This document shows, piece after piece, positions 3,101 through 45,600 of a stretch of 64,000 bases of DNA. Each line of letters starts with the position of its first letter. The stretch's first letter is position 1. The notes below the pieces were generated by a model. It was not told the DNA's origin and made no database searches. It saw only the letters and a list, made by a program, of their open reading frames with translations. Source of the stretch: Periplaneta americana (Eukaryota; Arthropoda; Insecta; Blattodea; Blattidae); contig NC_091131.1 of assembly GCF_040183065.1 (NCBI RefSeq), forward strand, positions 100,812,330-100,876,329, given 5' to 3'. A program made the position numbers and the translations under genes.

Positions 3101-6100
3101 GTAATAAAAATAATAAAAAAGTTAAGAGTTATATCAAAACATACACAAAATGAAAATGTTTTGGGATATTCTCGCAACCCTTCTTAAATTCAAAAGAAAG
3201 AAAACTGGATCTCTATCCTTGACAAGGGCAATGACAGAAAAGCGGTACTGTAATACAATAATTTATAATATGAAATCTTACAAACATACATTAACAGCAT
3301 TGGCAAGAAGGATTTTTAGTCTTTTGTATCTTGTTGGGAATTGGAGTATCATTTATAGTTTTTTTTAACCATTATTCATAAGAAATATATAATTATAAGG
3401 GCTCCTACAAAAGACCTTTTCAGTTTCGAACACATGTAATTTACGTTCTATGAATCTGAGGTGCATGAAAATAGTACCAATTGAAAGAGAAACTCAAAAA
3501 GTTTAGTTCCTTACCTTAAAGATGTTCAACGTGACTCCCCTTGGTAACACGGCACACATCAAGCCTATAATTAAGTTCCATTTAGATACGCGCATTTTCC
3601 GACCCCCAGATTCTGAGGTTATGTCTGTTCACCTTACCAGAAAGAAGAAAAGTGACTTCGTCAGGAAACACCACGGAACAAATAAATTCATCATCGTTTT
3701 CAGTGAATCTTTCTTATGTCCAAGCCACTATAGGAACTTGATAAAATACCTTGAAAATGTCTTGGATTTATAGTATTGATTAGTAGAAATTGATGTGATC
3801 ACTGGGAGAGCTGTAAGCCCACCCAACCCACCCTAAATACAGTACTTTACTTATATACAAAAATCGTCGTGCGTGAACGAAGAATACCGCCATATTTCTT
3901 TAATGTAACAGTGGGTTTCAGTGTTGCCAACGTAGTAATAATACTAGACACATAATCAAACCTAACCTAACCTTTCTCATAATACTACACCCCTAATCAA
4001 ACCTAACCTAACCTGTCACATAATACACACCTAATCAAACCTAACCTAACCTGTCACACAATACTACACACCTATAGTAACATTCCTCACATTTAGTATC
4101 ATTTCGTTTTCATGTATTGCCGGCTCTGCCAATCATGTTGGTTTCCATCTATTGGAAGTGGATCGTACTAATATTCCTAATTCGAAGAAGACAGTATGGC
4201 GACTTTCATAATAATTACATTTTACATATTTCGTGATATACTAAATGTGTTGTGGTTGTGATAAAAGTATTGAAAATTCATTTATAGTGCCACATTGGCA
4301 GTGAGAAAAGTGTGCAATATTCGTTCAGTGGCTGGTGGATGCTCTACATTGACCTCGTTTTCAATTAAAGTCTGCTTACTTATGCAGATATTTCTTCGTA
4401 GCACTTTGTCCTCTGGTTTTAGGGTTTGCAACAACTGCAGTCGATACGGATGAAAATGCAACCATTTGTGAAGAATCTTGCCTTAAAATCAGTGTATTGT
4501 AGGCATTAAACTTTGTTCGGTAATGCCGTTGCACATTAATAACCGACTGGTTCACATGAAAATCAAGCTTTTCTGTCCTCTATAGCAGCCATTTTGCCTC
4601 AACAATGAACAAACTTGTTTATATGCGCTGTTATGAGGCAGTGTTACCAACTATAAAAACAATGTTGCCACAACTAAACTTTTTGAGTTTCTCTTTCCAT
4701 TGGTGCTATTTTCATGCACCTCAGATTCATTATATGTGTTCGAAACCGGAAAGGTCTTTTGTAGGAGCCCTGTACCTATAAGTAGCTACCAGTACCCAAA
4801 TAAAACAAACTTTTAGTTTGATAATTCATGGCATAAATCAACAATAATTTGAGAATGTCGCTGTGTCTGTGGCTCAAGCCATAATACACTGATCTTCCAT
4901 ACAAGTAGCCTGGGTTTAACACCCAGTCAGGTCATGATGAAATTTGTGGTGGACAAAGCAAATGTTGTGAAGGGTAGGCTAATATTTAGTCAAACTATAG
5001 GGTTGATAATTATTTATGTGCAATGAATGAAAACACAATCTATCTATTGCTTTTGATTCATTCTAGGAAGTGATAAGTATCATCACACACACACTCGAAA
5101 ATATATCACTGTCGAAAAAAGTAAAACAAAACATTTACTTACTTGGCCGACAATATCTTCCTTTGAATCCTGGACTACAAGAACAGGTACTGTCTTTGTT
5201 CACTGGCCAGCAGATAGTAACACCACTACAGTTAGTCAATTCAGAAACTGAGAACTTATTACAAGCCTGTGACATGTTGAGTCTTGAATCTGGAACAATA
5301 CATGAAACAAGTAGATTCTAAATTGTACAACTTCACAATATCTTAAAATTTACATTTTATACAGTCATTCAGAATTTATCCTTTCGTTCCCTCTCAGAGC
5401 ATTTCATGATTCAAGAATAACATGTGATCATACAGGAGAGAGGGAGAAAACAGAGAGAAAACAGAGGGACAGACAGAGAATGAAATAAAGGGATGAAGAG
5501 AAAAAAGGGTTAGAAGTGGGGTGTGACAGCATTTAGCTGTCACAGCTTCGAACTCTGACTGCTCCGGAAAAATCGCTGTAATAGATAATAACGATTTTGT
5601 CACAGTATGATTTTTGTGTTTGGATGATTCTTGGTGACTGTGATAGTCTCTCATCACGAGCTGATAGATGTTTATGTTTATCACTCTTCTACAAATTGAT
5701 AGACCAGTGCCATGTCCTATATCAACAATATTGATTAGCTCGGTGAGTATAACAAATACAAACATGCTCTGAGCTGTGTTATCGCAATGTGTGGGCACAT
5801 ATATTCGCTTAAGAAAGTTTAAAAATTATTTGGGAGTACTTCGGCAACGAAATGGTGACATCAGACTTTTTCAGATGAATGAGATGATAATTAATTAAAT
5901 CCCAGTTACGTTGTCCTTCAAATTAATAATGAATCTTCTGACTTGCAGTTGTCTGAAGCTGTCATATATCTATACATACATCAGTTGCCATTGCTATGAG
6001 TCACATATTGGTTGGAGGTGGCGATTTTTTGGAGCTGTGATTTTGAAACTACAGTCACAGTCGGAACCAGCAACAGATCTATCACAGCGACAAAATCACA

Positions 6101-9100
6101 GGTCTTCACTAGAAGAGGTAGAGAGAAAGAATATTTTCATGGGTAATGCTTGGACTCTGTGTGAGATAACCATTAACAACGAAACCCTTGATTGTTGTTT
6201 AGAACGTGATTCTTGACAAGATGACTGTAGATAAGTAATTCTTTTGTTATTGTCACATAATTAAACTCATTTTGGCATGACATATGATATTTACACGCTA
6301 GTTTCACCATTACTTTTTTAGGCAAGTGTAATAAATATAATATTCACATTTAATTAATACAGAGCCAGTGTCAAAGATGATGCTTTCCTTTGAAAAAATA
6401 AGATAAGAGTTTGTTTAATTATTGATCAGGCTTCCTGAAATGTCGCTCCAATCGCAAGGAGTGACAACATATGTCTACCAATGATGCCTTAGCATTTTTA
6501 ATTGATGAGCCGATATCAACTCCACATGGAGTACATAACAAGGTTGTCATATCTCGAGTTAATTGACGACTACAAAAAAGATTGTTGTTGTTGTTTAGTC
6601 AACTGTCTACAAGTACCAACAAGGCATCATTCATGAGACTAGGCCAGGAGATAATGGGATAGGGTGGCAAGTTCCTTTTCCCTTCCATTACATACATCAC
6701 TGACTAGATAGATATTACAATAATCAGATTTCAGATAAAGAAAGGTTAATAGTTTTAACTTCAATTTTAATTAAAAGTCATGTTATAACTTAAAATTTAT
6801 TCACTGTGGATGATGGTGTAAAAATCAATGTACTGATGTCAGTATAAAAATAATTGTAACTAGGAATAATCTTTATAACAAAAATGTGATAACACTGCTG
6901 GACATTACAAATACTGATGCATGCAAAAAAAGATATAAAGCCTGCTGCTCGGGTATTAATTCAACGATTTTACTTTACATAGTAGATGAGTCACCCATGC
7001 ATTATTTATACGAAGTTATACAATCACGCACATTCAGTCAATTCTGTAAACACAGTACTAGTTATCATATAAATGGATATTCGGAGACTAAGAGGAAGGC
7101 AGAAAATAGAAAACATTGGAGAATGCTGGGTTTGCAGTGCAAGACCTGCCCTTGGGCAGAACACTACGTATGTACTGGATTAGATCATCAACCTGGCGTT
7201 CTGATTCTACTAATTTATTTCGCAATAATGCGCTTACAGCTCTTAACTTATCAACTTCCACAAGACAGACATTTAAACTTTCTGATTGTTGTTTAATCAA
7301 TTTTTTATTTTCGTCTAGTTTCTCATGCAGTAAATGTAGCGACTTACCCAAGTCCTTTTCTGATTTCTGACTACCTACATTTTTTTAATTAGCTATCTTT
7401 TCCTTCACACTAAAAACCGATTTATACAGAGCAACTGATGAAGGAGGGTTCGCTGCCATTACAATCTTCACAACACCACACTTTATTATTGATTTTAACG
7501 AGATCTGGATCTTCTTCATTCAAATTTACACATTTCACATCAAATAACTTAAGAGCATTCAGAACAGCTTAATTTGAATGTTGTTACTTTGTTGTTGCAC
7601 TTACTGCAAACACTCATTATTGAAACAGCAATTTGCACTTCGCTTTAACAAATACATCTAAATTTCGACAACCTCTCAAGCAGAAAACGAATCAATGCCG
7701 GAACACAGCTGGAAAGCAGGCAAATGTGTGTCTATAACCTAAGGTACGCCAATGGCAGAGATAGTGTCAGAAATACCAAAAAAAAAATCACATAAAAACA
7801 GAGAGGTTAGGAATGGAGATTTAATCACCTAATTATTTATGACATTATAGTGATGTATGCAATGGAGGGAGAAAGGAACTGGCCACCTTACCCTATTATC
7901 TCCTGGCTTAGTTGCTTCTTGAGTGATGCCTTATTGACATCACGTATGAAGTTTCAACCTGTCTTCAGACAGTTGATTAAACAACTGTTATTTGTTGTTA
8001 TATCGGGAAATAAAAAATATTGTTGTTGTCTAGTGCCTTGCATTTGGCAATGAAGCCATTAGCCATTAATAAAAAATATTAAAAGCGTAATTTATGATAA
8101 ACTCATTTTATACATTGAAACAGTTACTACAGTTGCATTCTCATGATATAGGTTAAAGTAAATGCACAGATATTTTTTTACCTGGATATTTGCTCGCTGG
8201 AGACGGAATAGTGAGATTTGTGTCACGGTATTGCAATGGACGACATGATATTCCTCGATTACTTTTAACATTCACACGAGATATTCGAACGTCACCTGCA
8301 AAATGCAAAAAGAGTCAATTTGATATTAATATTAGAAGACATATAAAAGACAATGTAATTTTATGAAACAAACAATATGAATTTGCAATGATTGGTGCCA
8401 GTGGACGTGCAGTGGATTTCACCCAAAATTAAACTGTGCTCACCCTTTTGCCACAAGTGTAGCTGAAACTAGTTTCAGAACACTCTCAACTCCATGTATT
8501 AATTAGCCAACCGGTACTTTAAATGCTACTGTATCGTATTTAGTTTGGCTTTAGCAATTAGTTAAAAATCCACAATATTAGGTACTAGTATTTTGAGTTC
8601 TTAAATCTCCCTATTTTCATCTCGTTCACTTTTGTTTTTCTCTCTACATAGTGCACAAAATAGAAATGAAATTATGCTCCAGTCAGTAGTAATATTTAAT
8701 ACCTACCGTATTATAAATATTTGTCTTTACTAATAACAATTTATTCCCATGAAAATTTTAATGGCGTGTGGCACATAAAAGATAATCTCAAATTTTGAAG
8801 TTCTGGCCATCAGAATGTTTTCCCATTTTAAATATGATGGCAATGCCACTCGATGTTCCTAATACCATTATGCAACCTGGATCCAGCACAAACCAGAATA
8901 AGATCATCGAAGTTAGAAAGATGATTTTAAAATTGCAAATTACTCAACAATATAAATATATATGGTATATACATACTAGGTTCAAAAAGTTTCCGGAATT
9001 TGCTAGTATCATAGAAACAACGTACCTTAAACACTATTCTACAGCATTCCCTTCAAAATAGTTGCCTTCCGCAACAACACACTTTTGCCAACGCGTGTAG

Positions 9101-12100
9101 ATTTCCTGGAAGCAGGCCTGGAAGCCATTTTGTGAAACCCGTCTTAGTGCTCTCGTCGCGTTTGCGATAACCTCTTCAGCATTGAATCTCCGTCCTTTCA
9201 GATGACTTTTCAGACGGGGAAACAGAAAGTAATCAGGTGTTGAGAGATCAGGAGAGTATGGTGGGTGATCCAAAGCAGTTATGTTGTGCCTGGCAAGAAA
9301 ATTCTTTACAATAATTGCGCGATGAGCAGGTGCATTGTCATACATAAGGAACCAGTTGTTTTCTACCCACTTTTCTGGACGTTTCCTTCTCATTGCGTCC
9401 CGGAGGCGACAGAGGATTTCTACGTACAATTCTTTCGTTACAGTACGACCTTCTGGAATGAACTCATGGTGGATGAGACCCTGAGAGTCGAAGAAAACTT
9501 CCAACATAACTTTTCCTTTGGAAGTGTCCCTAGGAAATTTTTGCTTCCGAGGAGATATTTTCGATTTCCACTCAGATGACTGTCGTTTAGGGACTGGGTC
9601 GTACAAGTAGCACCAAGTTTCATCACCAGCATTAATTTTGTTTAAGAAATCACCATCTTCATCAGCCATACTGATCATGTCCCCAGCAAGAGTCATTCTT
9701 GTTTCTTTCTGTTCTGCCGACAACATTTTCGGAACTAACTTCTGAGACGAGTAATGCATGTTGAGATGCTTGTGAAGAACATTGTGTACACTTCCGACTG
9801 ATATTCCGACCTCTGCTGCTATATCTTTTATGGTTTTACGTCGGTCGTCCCTCACAACATTACGCACACGATGAGCAATTGCTTCATTTGTTGCAGTTGT
9901 TGGTCGGCCGCTGCATACGTCATCTTTGATGCTATCGTGGCCACCAGAAAAGCGTTTGTGCCAGGCATATGTACACTTGAGTTTTTTTCATTGCTGCTTC
10001 GCCATATGCTTCTTCCAACAATCTTAATGTCTCTGCAGGAGTTTTGTGTAACAAAACACAGAACTTGATGTTTCTACGTTGCTCTGTGAACATAATCACA
10101 AAATGCGACGAACAAACAAAACACTATGATAAACAATTGCCTATAACTCAAAACCAACAATCGCCATTATCAACAAACTTTAAGGAAATGACATCATGAA
10201 TGTTATCAACAAAACAAATGTATAATATCCCTTGTTATATATTAATACAAAAAATGGTAGTAAAATTCCGGGAACTTTTTGAACCCAGTAGTATTTTTTT
10301 GTTCATGGATTTTATCTAGAACAAAAATGGAATATTACATTGTACTTCCACCATCCTGTGAATAAAGACTGACATTTTTTTTTTTTTTCAGTATCTGTAC
10401 CCTACATTTCGCATCTATGTAAAGTAATAAATATAATTAATTAAGTAATTTAGATTTATAATTTTCCTTATGTTTAGATTTATTAAAAATCGCTTTATCA
10501 TTTTACATTGTAATTCTAATTTCTACACGTTTTCGAACGTTTAATAGATTTACATCGTCAGTATCCTTATGTCTGTTACGTGGACACACAGCAGTGGCGG
10601 GAAGATTTTGCATTTCTTCATGTTTTTTGGCATGATACTGGGAGGAAAGTCGATCGATTGAAGGCAGAAAAAACTGATAATCTCTACCGAGAATATAACT
10701 AATTTTTTTGTTTAAAATTCTCCTTTTATTCTCTTTTCAGTTCATGTGGCTGATCACTTGATCAGATACCACGTGCGGAAGAATAATGGACACTTCATAC
10801 TGCTTAAAATTGTGCGTAAATTTTATTGATATATTAGACTAGCTAATAGTACACTTGAAAATAGTTTTCATAAGTTTTTATTGTAATATGTGCTGTAAAT
10901 ATATACCATAATGAATTATTATGAAGAGATGCGAGAGATTCAATGGATATAAACTGAGTTCTTTATGAGGGTAAAACAGACATACAGCAAGAACAAATAA
11001 CTAGAGTAATCCATTGCCAGAATTTCATTTCTCGGAAATTAAGCTAAGTTAACTATAATTTCTCTGTGTAAGTGATCACACTTCAGGTGAATTTATAATT
11101 ATGTTATACTGTGTTCTGTTATTATTGTATACGACTAAAATAAAGTTCATGCTCATGCTCACCCTTTTCTTTACATTCCCGAACAGCTCCTATAGCAAAG
11201 AAAAGTTTTGCCTGTGAATAAATAATTAGCTGTGTTCCATTCTTCCATCCATCAGATAAATTATGAATAATTCTTTCGGTTCTCCATTGCTTCTGCAACA
11301 TTAATGAACGTGACATAAATTATATTTTCGTTATGACAAGGAATGGACAATGATGTTTCATGACTTGCATGATGATGATGATTGTGAATTATGCTTTGTA
11401 CATATTGGTGAGTACGTTGAGGTACAATATGGTTAAAACTCCCAATCATCTAGAATATATTTGCAGATTACTGAAAAATAAATAGTAACCCTTCTCATGT
11501 TAGAGCATTTTCATTTCATGTCTTCCCAAAAGGTTCACCTTGTGCAATAAACATTCTTTAACAATATGTTTCTATATAGAACAAATATTTGTGCAACACT
11601 GGTTATGAACCATTATCTTGAACTGTAGGCTATAATAAATAACAGTAAACGAACTCACTTCACTGGGTGATAACTTTATTACAGTTTCACTGAAGTTGCG
11701 TGTAACATAAAACAGCTCCACATTCAAGTTCGTATTCATTTGTTGGCTGTAGTGTAGAATATACACACACAGTCTGGATGAAGATGGATGAAACACAGGA
11801 CTCTTTAACTTAGCCCCAGTGTTGTCCCACCTGAAAGTATCTAATCAACAATTTTTGTTACAATGGATACACTAAGATTTAATACATTCAGGTTCTACAC
11901 GTAAAATGAACATGGAACGAAAAGAAATTATGTTTCTGTAAGGAGAAGGCACATGCAGAATTAAAGTGGTAACAAACAGTTCCTGAACTACTGTGTGATT
12001 TAGATCAGTAGTTGTTGGTAGTAGCCTACCAAGTGTTCTGTATGTCTTTTTATACAGAAACAAAAAATAGAATATACGTGGTGTACTCACAAGAGACTTT

Positions 12101-23000: not shown

Positions 23001-26000
23001 CTACATTTGGTACACGGACATTTCGTCCACTTTTTTTTTTGTCAAAGGATTCGTCCATTTTCAATATTATCAATATATCATAGGTCCACAAATATTTTGT
23101 CCATTTTCTTTGGTCCACATTTTTTGTTCATTTCTTCTAAAGTCCATTTAAAATTTTGTCCATATAGCTAAATACAAGACAAGTTAAACTGCAGTTAATA
23201 GAAAACAATTTCATCATTATTAATGTACTTTCTTATGGTTCCCATGATAGTGAAATCCAATTTAATCTATATATGTGCCAGAACTCTTAATGAAGAATCA
23301 AATTTATACAGTATGATTTCAAAGACAGTACAATGGCATATTTACTTCCTTCGTCTAAAGACTAGGATAAAATAGTTCATAACAATTGCATATATCAGTT
23401 CCACTCATTCAGTAAAAATGGAGACTGACTGCTTTCGCGATGAGAAAATTGTGATATATGTAATGCCCAATATATCACAAATAGGAACATATCTGTGGTG
23501 CCTGGGTAAAGGGGTATAAGTCCAAAAAATCGAAAAATGAGTTACGTATGCCATGATGTTCGGAAAGGCATATTCTATAATTGGGTAAAGCGACATAAGT
23601 CCATCCAGCTCAGAAAAGTGTGTATATAGATGTGTAAAAGGGTATTAATCTCAAAAAGCTAATGTTTGTTTGGGTAAAGGGAGATAAGTATACTTATATC
23701 CATTTACACGATTTGGAATTGTACATACGTGTTTGGTACTGAACTTATACCCTTTTGCACAACCTCTTGATGAAGACACGTATAGACCTGTAACACCGTA
23801 CTTAAAATTTACTGGCAGTTTGGCAAATATACTGTGTCAATAGCAAGAATAACAACATTTTTGCATATTTAATGTCTGCATATATCATTCGAATAATTCA
23901 TGTGCGGTACCAACATTATGCAAGAGTATGGCATAACAGCTACATTGTTTAATATCGAAGTATCCATTGAGAATTGATGGACAGATGGTTCCTGTATGCA
24001 AAAAGTGTTTCTTGGCAACATTTGATGAGATTATCTCTTCCTTCTAAATCGATACTGTGAAAATTCGAGTCAGTAAGTCGCACAGTCTATGAACAATTAT
24101 TTTATAACTGAATCTAAAAATCAACCATCCCAAAATACTCGTAGATACATATCATATGTCATGTGATACCTTGAAGATAAAACTGAATTGTTTATCCAGA
24201 GATGGAAAGACAGCAGTACAAGCGTCCCTATTGCAATATCAAGATCTGGCTGATAAAGCATATCTTGCAACATCTCAAGGCAAAGAATATGCAATCAGTG
24301 GGTTATTTTACGATGCTGTATCAATATCTCAGGTTATTTAACATCTGAATGGAATGAAGGTGATAATGCCGGTGAATTGAGTCCGGAGTTCAACACTGAT
24401 AGTTACCCATCATTTTCTCATAGTGAACTCTTGTTTGGAGGAGAGTGAAATCCTCTTTCATCTTGAATTATTATACCTCGAACTGAGTCTTTTGACAATC
24501 AGCTGCAATGAGCAAAGAGGCAGTTATCTTTTCCTATGATCAGGGATACAAGCTGTACATAGAACACTTCATGATATTATAATAGGCACAATAATTATTA
24601 AGATTCAATTTATGACAAACGTATTGACAAAGTCACATGTTATGTTATAACATTTGACTTACATCAATGTTTACAGACAACAATGTTGAAAACTTCTGTT
24701 GCTTTCTACAAGCGTCAAATTTGGACTTCTAATTTGACCGTACATAACTGTAAAGACGGACAAGTCACATGTTTTATGTGGAGTGAAGTTGATGGTGACC
24801 GGGGGAGCTAATCAAATTGCATCTTGCATTTCAAAATTTCTCTATAATGTGCCTTTCCATGTGAAACATGTAATAGTGTATTCAGACACATGAGGGGGGG
24901 GGGGGACAAAAAAACTCTCACGTGCTGGCTATGTATGTATCTGTTCTGAAAAATCTTCCACACTTTGAAACATTGAGTCGCAAGTTTTTTTTTTTTTTAT
25001 AAAAAGCCACACTCCGACCATGCCTAAATTGAGGAAAGAAGAAAAACTGTGACATAAAAATCCACATTCTTCATGACTGAATGCAGCTTGTACGACTTAC
25101 AGGCAAAAAGAAGCCATTCAATGTGATTGAAATGAATCAGTCAGACTTGCTTCAATATCACTGGTCTGCAGTGATTTTGCTACTGAACAAAAACAAGTAT
25201 ACCAACCCTAATTCGAGTGTGCTCATTACAGATCTGAAGTCTGTTCCTTTGTATCACGCACAAGGTTAAAATAATAACATTTTTAATTTTACATTTTAAT
25301 ACCTTTAGATCAATTTAATTTATTTTATTGTGATTTTGTTACTGAACAAAAACAAGTGCACCAATCCTAATTTGAGTGTTCTGATTACAGATCTGAAGTC
25401 TATTTTGTCTGTCACGTCAAAATTTTCAAGTAATAATATTTTTAATTTTTAATTATGATGTGTGACACTACGCTCAGGTCAAAACTGAGTGTTCTTAAAC
25501 TCGAAGCTTGGGACACATTTGTACTAGTGTCAACTAGGTTTTTAGGAAATTATCGAGCTGTTAATTATACTGAGCTAGTATATAACATGCTTAGAGCATT
25601 TCAGAATCTAGGTTGTTGCATGTCTTTTTTTTAGACCAGTGTATTCTGACTTATTCAAAGATGCTCTCGAAATGAAGAAAACCACAGAATAAGGTGAAAG
25701 ATCTCTCTGTAAAATTATGAAGTGGTTCAAATTTACAAAGGCTGTTGACATAGTATTGTTTAAAGAAACACTTGATACATGAAAAGATTTCAAGACACTG
25801 AATGTCAGGCGAAGAGGACAAACACGTAATCTACTCCAGTTACCTGTTTCATATCAGGACCTTGTACCAATTTCTTGTCAAAAGAAGAAAGATTTATTGG
25901 ACCTGCTACCGGTTGTTCCAAATATATTTCATTCCTTTTACACTGCACTTCCAACAACCTCAACAGTACAAGACATCCATCCTGTCACAATCGAAGAAGT

Positions 26001-29000
26001 CTATGAAGATTAGTGATTTTGATAATGTTAAAGAAAGTGCTTATTAATTCTTATTGTCTATAGTTTGAAAAATGTTATCTTATCATTCCTTAGGTACACT
26101 GAGGCAGATACTATTTTGAAAATAACATTTTATTGACAGTGAAACATCTAATACTATTGGTGTTATGAACAGTAAAATTTACTTTCTTCTTTAACTTTGC
26201 TTAATTTTTTTAATGCAGCTGTTCAGCCATCTTCGAACATTGTGTAATTTTTAATAGTCATTATGTTTCATAATATGAGCTTTGCGTGTTTATTCTGTAA
26301 GAGATATTTCGGGGTAAAAGGAGATAAGTTGTATGTAAGTTTGTGTAAAGGGGGATAAGTTGTCCAAACTTACTATAATATAAAAAACATTATGAAAATA
26401 TTGAAAATAAGTAAATGTTTGTAATAGAACTTGAAAAGCATTAAGCGAAGGACAAAATAACCAGAGTACATTGTAAAAAGAAACACACTGGGATTTACAG
26501 ATTTGTTGCAAACTTTGTTTTTGCATTTTCTCAAAAGTTAAATTTAAGACTTATACCCCTTTACCTGGGCACCACAGATATATGCTCGTATTAATCTATT
26601 TAAGGGAGGTAAGCATACACATGTTGAGAACAGAGCTGAAGTTGGTGCGAAAAACGTTATGGTAGGAATCAAAAGAAGGGACGAACAACACCCAAATGAA
26701 TCTCCCACAGCACTATAAGGGAAGAAATTCAGGCCATCGAAGATCAGGAAATACTACTGAATTTACCAGAAAGAAATTCATTATTACGTACCGTCAGCAG
26801 AGCACAAAATGTACTTGATTGATATTTGCGTGCCATGAACTACAGATTAAAATTGTACAATACCGAAGAGAGGGATAAAGAGAGAAATAGAAAATAATTA
26901 GTAGGCCTATGTTATTTAAATTTTTCTTTATTTCCTTCTAAAATTAAATTTGTAGTTAAATTTCATTGTATATGACTGAAATAAAGTAGCCTAATATAAT
27001 TCTGTGAATAATATATTAATCCTACAATGGACCATAAATATTGTAGACTAAAAATATATAAAATGGACAAAAATTTCTAAGCACATTTCAGTATAGTGGA
27101 TGAAATCATACAGTGGACTATTTTTATAAGTTGATATAACTAGGTGGACAAAATTGTTATGGATATAAAATTACTGTGGATTAAAATCTCAACTGGACGA
27201 AAATAATGTGGATGAAATGTCACCGAACAATCAGTTTGGGAATTGGAGCTGTATCATTAACTGGTTCATAATTTTATTGTTTCCTCATTCCATGAGGCCT
27301 AGTCTCGACACATCAATATGACGCCAATAAAGAAAGAAGAAGAAAGCTTTTTAATGCTTTGACATCTCTGTATCTGTTATTGTGGAAAGTGGAAACAATT
27401 ATTTTTAAATAGGCCAGTATCTTAATGGACTTTTTACAACATACTTTTATTTTAAAAAGCTTGAACTTTCGAACTCTCCAACCATCTCTACTAGCCAAAC
27501 ACATCTCAGTAACGCAGTTTGTACTCAAACCATCCACGCTTCATGTAAGGATACAGCTATACCGGCATAGCTTTAATGTTGCTCAAATCATATTTCTGGG
27601 TGCGCCAGTCAACAATGATCACATTACTAACTGTAATCTGCATGACGCACTCTGTGATTCATCTTAGTATTTGCTACTAATTTAATGAATCACCAGGCTT
27701 TTCACTTAAGAAACTGGTTAAGTTCATGTATGTGCAAATAATTTCTTAAGTTAAACTGACAGTCGCATCTTAGTTAATTCAAATGATTCCTTTTAAATTA
27801 TTTGGTTTCCTGGGATATAAGGAAAATGAAAAAACCTTTTTGCAAAGAAAGAACACTTCGAGACACAATCATTGTCTTCAATTATTAACTATTGTGCATT
27901 ATATCTTTTAATCTTACCTTCAGATGGATCAAGAATGGCAGCAAAAGTGTAAACAAGGCTGTAACATAAATGTTTAATTTTAATATTAAGATATTCAAGA
28001 TGTTTCATACAAAACAGTATTAAGTGCCCAAACTATACTATAAACGATATAACTACTGGTAACAAATATGAATAACATATTATTCGTATAACATTCAGTG
28101 GCGCCTGCTTTTGGAAAACAATGGGTGGAGTTATACGTTAAAATAAATTAATCTCATAAATAATAATAATGATAATAATAACACGACAAATTATTGGGTG
28201 GGCTCTGGCGCCAATGCATACATTAGTTTATAGTAATGAGAAGTTAAGGATGTAAAACTGACACACTGCTATTCACAGATGATCAAATTATAATTGCTAC
28301 ATCTGAAGATGACCTTTTTTTTCACTTGTACAGAGGAGGAACCCGAAGGCTTGCACTGCAGCATGAGGCTAATTGTGCTTACAACTCCTATTCTGTGAAT
28401 AAATGGGTAGCCAAACAACCGCGCTCTTGTATGGTACAAGTACAGCATGCCGCACCATGAACTTAATTCAGGTTATGGTATGGATGATGATGATGATGAT
28501 GATGATGATAATGATGATGATATGTGCATTAATGATGGCAAAATGAGTGTGGGATGAATTTTCCGATATGCTACTGCTTTTAACAATTTTTAAACACACT
28601 TAAATCACTATTCAGGAAGATACTAATCTGGAAATATCTGTTATCCTCGATGGTCAAGTCATTTACATCAATACAGATTCTTATACATCTTCATTATACA
28701 ACTTTTAACACTATATCACTTAGGAATACAATAATGCTAACTTTCACATGTTAATACAACTAGGTTTAAGAATACCTTAGTTGACTAGTTTCGGCTTCAG
28801 AACTGCTGAAAGTAATCATTATTGTATTCCTAAACAAATTTTTAGCACAACATCCTTAGAAACGGAAGTATAGTATGGAATCTCGTGTTAGATTCGTAGT
28901 ATGTAAAAACAATTGTTCAATGAAAAGTCCCCGGGTAAAAATTCTCTCTAGTTTCATACCTATATAAAAATCCAGCTATCCTACTCATCACCTTCACCTA

Positions 29001-38933: not shown

Positions 38934-39169
38934 AGAGGATCACATGTGGTAAAGAGGATCACATGTGGTAAAGTGGATCACATGTGGTAAAGTGGATCAT
39001 ATGTGTATTGTCTAGATAAGGCAGCGCCACATGGATCACACATGAAAAGAAAACCTTTCTTCTGTAAGTGCCACTAAAAATAGTTTTCTTTGCATGTGTG
39101 ATCCATGTGGCGCTGACTTATCTAACAATACACATATGATCCACTTTACCACATGTGATCCTCTTTACC
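38934..39169. mobile_element. 236-bp foldback MITE with tandemly repeated left end
   Basis: Inverted arms of about 90 bp (GATCATATGTGTATTGTCTA against its complement at 39123-39141, and AGCGCCACATGGATCACACA against the right arm). The 19-bp unit AGAGGATCACATGTGGTAA repeats about four times at the left (38934-39009) and about twice at the right. Confidence 0.8.
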
Positions 39170-42605: not shown

Positions 42606-45600
42606 CCAAATTTTTCTGGCAAATTGTATGAGAATTAAATGTTTTAATTACAATAAATCCTGATGCAGTGGAATATACGTATCTAACTCTCAACATATTA
42701 AACACTGCAATTATGAATCATCTTGGAATATGTTGTTGTTTTCTAATGCCAGGCGTTTGACAATAAAGTCATTTGACCTCTTGCACTCCAATATTTTTCA
42801 AAGATATTATCATGACTAGCCAATGAAGCACAGATTTTGAGGTGTTCCGAATCCATTTCTTGGTTTGAGTTGCACAATGGGCAGTTAGGGGACTGACATA
42901 TTCCAATTCTATGCAGGTGTTTGGCCAAACAATCATGGCCTGTTGCCAATCTAAATGCAGCTACAGACGATTTTCGTGGTAAATCGGGAATTAACTGTAG
43001 ATTTTGATGCAGAGAGTTCCATTTTTTCCCTTGGGATTGAGGTATGAAATTTTGTTTGTTGAAGTCTAAGTATGTAGATTTAATAAATCTCTTCACAGAG
43101 TAATACGTAGATTTAGTAACAGGTCTGTAAGTAGCAGTGCTGCCCTTCTTTGCTAAAGCATCCGCATTCTCGTTTCCCATGATCCCACAATGGGATGGTA
43201 TCCATTGGAATACAATTCTTTTATTGAGTGATAATAATTGAGAGAGCATTTTAGTTATTTCTGCTGTTTGGAATGAAGGTGTGTGTTTAGAGACGATTGA
43301 TAGAATAGCTGCTTTGGAGTCTGACAATATAACTGCATTCCTAAATTTATTAATGTGGCATAGAAGATTCCTGAGACATTCACTTATTGCAATGATTTCA
43401 CCATCAAAACTTGTTGTTCCATATCCAAGTGATCTATAAAGTGAGAAGAGACAGCACGTAACACCTGCACCGGCACCTTGTTCTCTGGAGATCAAGGATC
43501 CGTAGGTGTATAAATGAAGCCAGTTTTGTGGAGGGTACCTAGTATTAATTGTCACTAAAGACAATTGTTTCAGCATTTCAGTGTTTACTTCTGATTTCAG
43601 TATTTCTTCTGTTAAATTTAGATTATATTCTATATTAAATAGAGTTATAGGGTTTGGTTTAATTTGTAAGTTTTCTTTTAAATTCGGGATATTGATTTTC
43701 TGTTTTAATTCTTGAACAATGGATATGAAACTTTTTTGAGTTTTCAATCTACAAAGAGGACTGTATGAATGCCAATTGTTACCTGGTAATCTGATAAGTT
43801 TTTCATATTGAATCAGTGCTTTTTCTTCTATTGTCATTTTGATGCTGTTAATATTAGTGAGGAATCTCATAGAATCTATTGGCGTTGTTTTGATTCCACC
43901 AGTAATGAGTCTGAGAGCTTGGTTTTGAACATATAAATGGCAAGTTGTAGCCGATTTAAGTGAACACCATATTTTAACATTTTGGTGGCTACTTCATTCA
44001 CACACAACCCCCAGAATGTCTGGAGGACCACACCTGCTGTTGGTCGACGGGTCCATTGGACCTAGCTGGAAGACCTTGTTGATCACCAGCTTTCCCTCCT
44101 TAAGCCACTGGAGGACGATTTTACTGCCATAGCAGGTCAGCACTAGGAACAGAAAAGTAGAAAGGGGAGGAAGGAAAGGGAAATGAACCCCTAGGCCTCG
44201 AATGCTCTAATGCCATTGGGGTCGAAGAAAGTAAGAGTTCAGTCAGAGGACTGGATAGGAAAGGGTAAAGAGGGAATTAGGTATTGGATAGAGGAAAATT
44301 ATACCAAATTCAGTCATTAACTCATCAAGCTGACCAGTGCTAATGGATGAGTAGCCCCACCCTTTAGTTCAGCTCGTAAAATTATGCTTACTAACAGCTG
44401 CACCACGGGAAGGTAGGGATGGGAAATTGGGTATTTGTCCAGGTTGGTTCCTTAAAGCCTTCAATGGAAAGGATTAATGGCTCTCCCCCCTGTATCCGAC
44501 AGATACCCTTTTGCAGCCATCTTGGAATATAAGTTCTAACTCTCAACATATAAACATGTAATTATGAATCACCTTATGCAGCAGTAGCAGCAGCAGCAAT
44601 GTTTTTTATTGGTTATTTTAGGCCGTTTTTTCAAGTCCTATGGTTATATAGTGTCTGAATGAGATGAAGATGACAATGTCAGCAAAATGAGTCCAGGGTC
44701 CAATGCCGAAAGTTACCCAGCATTTGCTCTTAATGGGTTGAGGGAAAACCCCGGAAAAAACCTCAAACAGGTAACTTGTCCAAACCAGGATTTGAATCCG
44801 GACCCACTCATTTCATGGTCAGAGATTCTAACCATTACTACACACTTCATTTAGTGTATTCATGAATAAAATTTCGTCCTTAAGTTTCTGCATAGTAAGT
44901 AATGAAAAAACTGAACAGGATATTGATATTACTGTACCTTTCTCGTCTATTACATCTTCTTGAGGTTCCCAAGCCAATCCTGAGTAGGCAGCATGGTTCT
45001 GTGCCACACCCCATACACTATTGCCCCACTTCAATAAAGTCACACTTGGAGTACTTAGGCCTACAACAAAAATATGCTGTTAAGAATTCGAATATATAAA
45101 CAGCAATCAATGACAAAATTTGGCTATTTTCAGTGATAAGTAGCCTACTGTAACTGTTTTGTCTTAAATTTTCGTTTCACTTTAAGCACCTAGTCCTATA
45201 AACTAACAATGCACATGAAAGGTAGGTAGTGACTTACATGGTTAAGTCTACTCTTTTGTATTCTCACACTGACAAATCTTTTAGTAACTATAGAACTTAT
45301 GTGTGACTATCACTTTTATCACACAGAACTCAATATAAAACAAATACACTCCTAAACCTTCTACACCTGCATGGGATTACGGGTTTTGTTATGTATTTGT
45401 GTATACTTATGCAAAAATAGAGAGAGAGAGAAAGTAAATGAACGAGAGGGAGACGAGGGAATGAGAGAGGGATAGAAGGGGCGAAAGAAAGGAAAAGGGA
45501 GGTAAAGAGAAAGAGGAAGAATGTGTTATTATATGATAATACAGGGTGAACCAGCCAGGACTAGATTCCTAACTGTACTCACGGTGGCTGACTCATACAT

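Follow-up and report, generated by a model that had tools for sequence, protein, structure and literature searches.

Sola2 DNA transposons have terminal inverted repeats (TIRs) of 12-21 bp and AWWT target-site duplications, including ATAT, AAAT and ATTT, according to the portion of the published description used here (PMC3627910). For Sola elements in general, the cited part of the literature gives DDD (three-aspartate) transposases, TIRs of 11-1124 bp, 4-bp duplications and lengths that mostly lie within 2-9 kb (PMC10741241). Sola was placed in the RNase H-like superfamily in the cited section of a survey of RNase H-like proteins (PMC3985635). An element at positions 23493-26577 of a 64,000-nucleotide stretch of Periplaneta americana contig NC_091131.1 (the whole stretch is called the window, and all positions refer to it) was compared with these descriptions. 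With high confidence, the element is a Sola2-like cut-and-paste DNA transposon, in a copy that is dead and non-autonomous, and the gene inside it is most likely the relic of its own transposase. Short TIRs, 4-bp AT-rich AWWT duplications and a size of a few kb were shared with Sola2 as characterised in the cited portions (PMC3627910, PMC10741241). In contrast, Sola is DDD in the cited text (PMC10741241), whereas the third acidic residue here is D or E; moreover, the window copy is unlike Sola2 in being gene-dead, with a short interspersed element (SINE) and a foreign fragment inside it. The label "Sola2-like" was adopted because the duplication and TIR features fit, the comparison being made by published descriptions.

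The element is bounded by 30-bp inverted ends, CTGTGGTGCC(TG/CA)GGTAAAGGGGTATAAGTC, that match at 28/30 positions. ATAT adjoins both ends, and the arms including it are 34 bp long and 94% identical. The features of the two ends are given below.

23489-23492, no strand: left copy of the target-site duplication, ATAT; an exact 4-bp duplication was found here in 25/29 both-ended copies
23493-23522, + strand: left TIR, 28/30 against the right end; recognised in 29 both-ended copies
26548-26577, - strand: right TIR, 28/30 against the left end
26578-26581, no strand: right copy of the target-site duplication, ATAT, read in the sequence
23506-23758: left subterminal sites of the motif GTAAAGGGNNATAAGT, at 23506+, 23585+, 23674+, 23692- and 23743-, with a weaker one at 23632+
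26314-26564: right subterminal sites of the motif GTAAAGGGNNATAAGT, at 26314+, 26345+ and 26549-

Inverted repeats of at least 24 bp numbered 26 in the window, the element's own included, and most of the others were other repeats. A random control of ten Markov-1 sequences of 64 kb each, under the same criteria, gave one such repeat in total (25 bp, 92%). The motif GTAAAGGGNNATAAGT, counted with up to two mismatches, had nine occurrences in the window against 0.44 expected, and eight of the nine lay inside the element, close to its ends. The full set of eight sites was kept in 16 of the 34 family copies read, at near-equal distances from the ends.

Elsewhere in the window, a near-perfect palindrome of about 236 bp was observed at 38934-39169. 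It consists of 19-bp units, GGTAAAGTGGATCACATGT, three on the left and two on the right. Since its core, GGTAAAGNGGAT, resembles the element's subterminal motif, the palindrome may be a small non-autonomous relative.

The whole element was used as a query against the home genome (G000; 3,231,669,367 bases in 91 contigs), and the best 40 of 4477 candidates were scored, so that the counts are lower bounds. At least 94 matching pieces were obtained, counted as at least 37 places. Out of these 37 places, 34 copies were read, namely 33 (L012-L044) and the window copy. Of the 34, 29 (this one included) had both ends, an end being accepted when at most 6 of 22 positions mismatched; in the other five, an end could not be recognised within the fetched stretch. 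An exact 4-bp duplication flanked 25 of the 29 both-ended copies, and none of the 29 matched at 3 or 5 bp. The duplications were AATT in 11 copies, ATAT in 6, AAAT in 5, and AACT, ATGT and ATTT in one each. Hence, AWWT fits 23 of the 25, with AACT and ATGT each off by one base.

Some copies shared flanks. The 29 both-ended copies formed 21 flank groups, two of which share part of one host repeat with different insertion points. Copies with common flanks (L024-L027 with L023; L036-L037; L014/L015/L017/L035) thus reflect segmental duplication or location in the same host repeat. When eight such copies were dropped (L015, L017, L024-L027, L035 and L037), 19 of 21 had exact 4-bp duplications. When the right flanks were permuted in 10,000 rounds, the mean was 6.9 and the maximum 14, the strong similarity of the insertion sites accounting for so high a mean. 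Inverted ends, a duplication of constant length and many copies in unrelated flanks, which together characterise a TIR DNA transposon, were therefore all found. The closest other copy among the matches listed was 99% identical to the window copy, indicating at least one recent copying event, by transposition or segmental duplication.

Relatives of the internal gene were sought in the home genome with the protein core of copy L031 as the query, the best 150 of 2732 candidates being scored. Many diverged relatives were obtained, with open frames of up to 697 amino acids (aa) among the matches listed. The longest listed relative, P0002, is an uninterrupted open reading frame (ORF) of 697 aa at L065 in the same genome, with the motifs DTCHKCD, AFDLQ, YSDSCGGQNRN, GHTHMECDADHAAIE and KKKDI. 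The tblastn alignment of P0002 with the element gave colinear pieces (best E 5e-21, two pieces jointly) that were spread over three frames and contained stops. VIVYSDT was located at 24870-24890, with a GGQ-like remnant right after it, and KKKDLLD at 25882-25902. The gene relic and its insertions are arranged as follows.

23937-24035, + strand: N-terminal gene relic with CxxC (tblastn, P0002 residues 203-235, E 4.5e-4)
24144-24293, + strand: DTxHxxCD gene relic (tblastn, P0002 residues 342-390, E 7e-4), clearer in other copies
24297-24425, - strand: SINE fragment within the gene, orientation by eye from the tRNA-like head in other copies
24421-24492, - strand: possible inverted gene piece (tblastn, P0002 residues 246-269, 46% identity, E 0.035, weak)
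24644-24905, + strand: core relic (tblastn P0002; P0001) spanning two Asp codons, the first at 24656-24658 and the second at 24885-24887 (YSDT), with one frameshift between them
24898-25158, + strand: remaining core, interrupted by stops and containing poly-G and poly-T tracts (tblastn, P0002 residues 481-570)
25171-25449, + strand: imperfect tandem duplication of about 120 bp with 159-bp spacing (83%; 89% over the first 75 bp)
25533-25625, + strand: unrelated coding fragment, longer elsewhere (...ERFHQDI...), not in P0002
25672-25950, + strand: C-terminal gene part with KKKDLLDLLP (tblastn, P0002 residues 582-674, E 1.8e-17)

Within the core relic, 24644-24844 reached E 5e-21 jointly with 24898-25158, and 24804-24905 reached 3e-7. 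What is left of the third acidic motif (DHA*IE) was judged by eye to lie near 25016-25033. The foreign fragment (SLKMHFLHSHFDFFPSNL..ERFHQDI) was also present at element positions 1571-1834 of L020. It had no Pfam match, and we take it to be part of another multicopy insect protein. An intron around 25268-25636 was considered and dropped, as the foreign coding fragment occupies this place in other copies and the P0002 frame is uninterrupted across it. An earlier sequence-only reading of the window had proposed the inverted ends with an ATAT flank, as well as a decayed internal gene with VIVYSDT, a GGQ-like patch and KKKDLLD, and both were borne out. It had also named copies of the ends lacking the gene as evidence that would count against it. 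No such copies were seen, and gene pieces were carried by 34/34 copies read; these were collected by the whole element, with no end-only search, so that end-only derivatives would be missed.

The core of P0002 (residues 436-553) matched the Pfam domain DUF7869 (PF25273) with 32.1 bits and an E of 1.1e-7, above the curated cut-off of 26. PF25273 thereby includes a homologue of the window pieces. It is catalogued as a domain of unknown function, and the match spans part of the core only. An alignment of 12 rows (A1) combined P0002 and P0001 with ten further relatives; two more, L088 and L095, were left out as near-duplicates of others. DUF7869 was matched at E 0.01 or better by 8 of the 12 rows, and the invariant columns were D402, L407, Y419, W443, E445, C458, S477 and D478. 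The diverged lineages stand side by side in the genome and were 27-58% identical over the compared parts. Searches of Pfam, NCBIfam and PDB with the window's broken pieces gave sub-threshold matches only, and the single PHROGs match of P0002 was at chance level (E 0.066). Scans of viral contigs yielded no confirmed relative, and a plasmid search yielded none. Three candidates from a motif scan of genome contigs (L001-L003) were rejected as chance, the frames around the match being full of stops. No paper on DUF7869, PF25273, IPR057191 or these motifs was found in the open-access literature searched; Repbase or Dfam may already include the families. A separate observation concerns one diverged relative, L084 (G000:C3:151674515-151675663), whose 614-aa frame departs from the others at conserved sites (CECQNKN, SHRDF) and which has possibly been domesticated or altered.

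Two further families were found to carry this gene type between inverted repeats. The L065 DNA was used as a query against the home genome, with the best 38 of 3481 candidates scored, and at least 28 gene-bearing places of the P0002 family were listed, L065 included. Its elements are about 3.9 kb long, the copy read being larger, at about 4.3 kb. All 27 places besides L065 end at query positions 4024-4038, and in 19 of the 28 an inverted copy of the piece 4001-4037 lies past the other side. The inverted ends of this family are 30 bp long, CTACAGGAAGCGTGAAAAACCGGGTAAGTC, as against CTGTGGTGCCCGGGTAAAGGGGTATAAGTC in the window's family. Nine of the 19 copies with the inverted end piece were read at both ends, and all nine had exact 4-bp duplications by eye, namely AATT in four, AAAT in two, ATAT in two and ACAT in one (AWWT in 8/9). 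AAAT and ACAT are not palindromes; hence, these are true direct duplications and not extra bases of the inverted repeat. Subterminal repeats were visible by eye in one copy. The third relative (the L096 family, one copy read) is a 544-aa ORF that is about 30% identical to P0002 and lies within 35-bp inverted repeats (34/35) flanked by ATAT, a duplication that is weaker evidence because ATAT is a palindrome. AAGTC was seen by eye on the inner side of the ends of all three families, and CCGGGTAA was common to the first two.

The P0002 family thus resembles the window's family in its homologous gene, 30-bp inverted ends, AWWT-like 4-bp duplications, subterminal repeats and the shared CCGGGTAA and AAGTC. 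It differs in the sequence of its ends and in an uninterrupted frame that lacks the SINE and ERFHQDI fragments. Since three families with differing ends have the gene type, the architecture and the duplication type in common, DUF7869 marks the presumed transposase of TIR transposons. The sequence-only reading had held that the gene occurring without the ends would tell against it. The gene type does have other ends in the P0002 and L096 families, and those ends are inverted repeats too.

Several observations weigh against the assignment to a Sola2-like transposon. No exact duplication was present in 4 of the 29 both-ended copies, L017, L023 and L035 having one mismatch and L028 three, and the remaining 18 of the 34 copies keep fewer motif sites, some because an end is missing. 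The comparison with DUF7869 that had been suggested earlier succeeded for the homologue P0002 and not for the window's own decayed pieces, which gave no direct Pfam DUF7869 match. The third catalytic residue is ambiguous: in a script-made alignment of P0002 with twelve relatives, 11 rows, some of them near-duplicates, covered the region, and reading by eye placed the E of IE in 11/11, the first D before it in 10/11 and the second D in 8/11. The AlphaFold2 single-sequence model of the core fragment P0001 was poor, with a mean predicted local distance difference test (pLDDT) score of 51.5 and the order strand, strand, helix, strand, and no PDB match by sequence was better than E 0.2; an RNase H fold is therefore an inference. 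The Sola2 assignment itself rests on the duplication type and the architecture, and not on transposase similarity.

An alternative view places the element in a different superfamily that also makes 4-bp duplications (e.g., Chapaev/CMC or Academ), or in a separate superfamily, as yet without a name, of which DUF7869 would be the hallmark. Duplications of 4 bp also occur in superfamilies other than Sola2. The third catalytic residue is possibly E and not D, and Sola2 is known here by its published description, not by comparison of transposases. Against this view, the short TIRs and AWWT duplications given for Sola2 in the cited portion of its description match the families found here (PMC3627910), and the alternative was judged unlikely, although it is the most serious one. 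A broader proposal may be made, at a slightly more tentative level, that a large transposase superfamily, unrecognised as such in protein databases, has DUF7869 as its catalytic domain. This superfamily would possibly be distinct from Sola2 and would have a D-D-E triad and many diverged lineages in one insect genome, some with long open frames.

It is very improbable that the gene is a passenger of host or foreign origin and that the real transposase lies elsewhere. Capture does occur in the family, as indicated by the ERFHQDI piece. Nevertheless, diverged genes of the same kind form a long ORF in two further families with other ends and the same duplication type. Moreover, D402 and D478 are invariant in A1, with an acidic motif after them.

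The state of the gene was examined across the copies of the window's family. The SINE fragment, retaining 88-129 of 129 bp, was present in the gene of 34/34 copies. An exact-pattern search located a stop behind the second presumed catalytic Asp in 22 of the 26 copies with a readable site; the site differs in L014, L015, L039 and L043, and the pattern missed eight copies, four of which (L018-L021) are without the core piece. The ERFHQDI fragment preceded the C-terminal part in 32/34 copies by protein match, the exceptions being L029 and L043. The P0002 protein reads through the places of the SINE and ERFHQDI fragments in one frame; thus, they are not introns there. In three gene segments, covered by 29, 30 and 32 copies, respectively, parsimony-informative sites at codon positions 1/2/3 numbered 8/4/4, 14/4/8 and 23/19/17, indicating no third-position excess. 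Open frames reached at most 174 aa in all 28 other end-bounded copies. One result speaks against early gene death: the majority-letter sequence was stop-free in three of four gene segments and had two stops in the C-terminal segment, so that a good part of the decay is confined to single copies. That the window copy, or its family, is autonomous and recently active is the least probable of the alternatives, for the 99% match of the closest listed copy and the largely stop-free majority reading are opposed by the lack of any frame above 174 aa in those 28 copies, the SINE fragment common to the copies, the widely shared stop and the lack of a third-position excess, as judged from the 34 copies read out of at least 37 places.

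The window's family probably spread without a working gene. It looks non-autonomous, so that the gene of the window copy is a fossil rather than a functioning payload. Apart from this correction, the earlier suggestion that the gene is the payload, and maybe the transposase, of the transposon is supported, the gene being most likely a transposase relic. An RNase H-fold DDE/D transposase, whose source was either intact relatives or an autonomous parent now extinct, would have bound the GGTAAAG...AAGTC repeats near each end. The element would have been cut out and inserted with 4-bp staggered cuts at AWWT-like sites. The lineage was probably already gene-dead during its spread, carrying the SINE fragment, the stop after the second Asp and the foreign fragment, and would thus have moved in trans.

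Other repeats were also observed in the window. A SINE-like repeat with a tRNA-like head (by eye) occurred as six copies or fragments, at 1597, 18774, 21862, 24297, 30921 and 44611. A mariner-type element was located at 8974-10290, with 28-bp inverted ends (93%) and a 317-aa frame matching Pfam Transposase_1 and DDE_3. RNase H frames at 390-878 (just below the Pfam cut-off) and 42746-43993 are probably from retroelements without long terminal repeats (non-LTR), and the latter frame is overlapped by an inverted sequence pair, 37983-38263/42731-43014. More long inverted repeats, at 3398-3508/4672-4771, 12948-13008/13648-13708, 29246-29634/31679-32037 and 49533-49607/49674-49748, are possibly other transposons or foldback elements. 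The insertion site of the element was considered as part of a FLYWCH/MULE-type gene, with one frame open across the restored 4-bp site; Pfam gave no confirmation, and this idea was not used.

The window copy is an ordinary fossil, yet it shows a large element spreading with a dead gene aboard. Through the long relatives in the same genome, a domain of unknown function becomes nameable from the anatomy of the elements: in both further families a DUF7869-type gene, and in the window's family its relic, lies between inverted repeats with AWWT-like duplications. Proteins of the DUF7869 type are numerous in insects, and many of them could be re-annotated as transposases and not as host genes.

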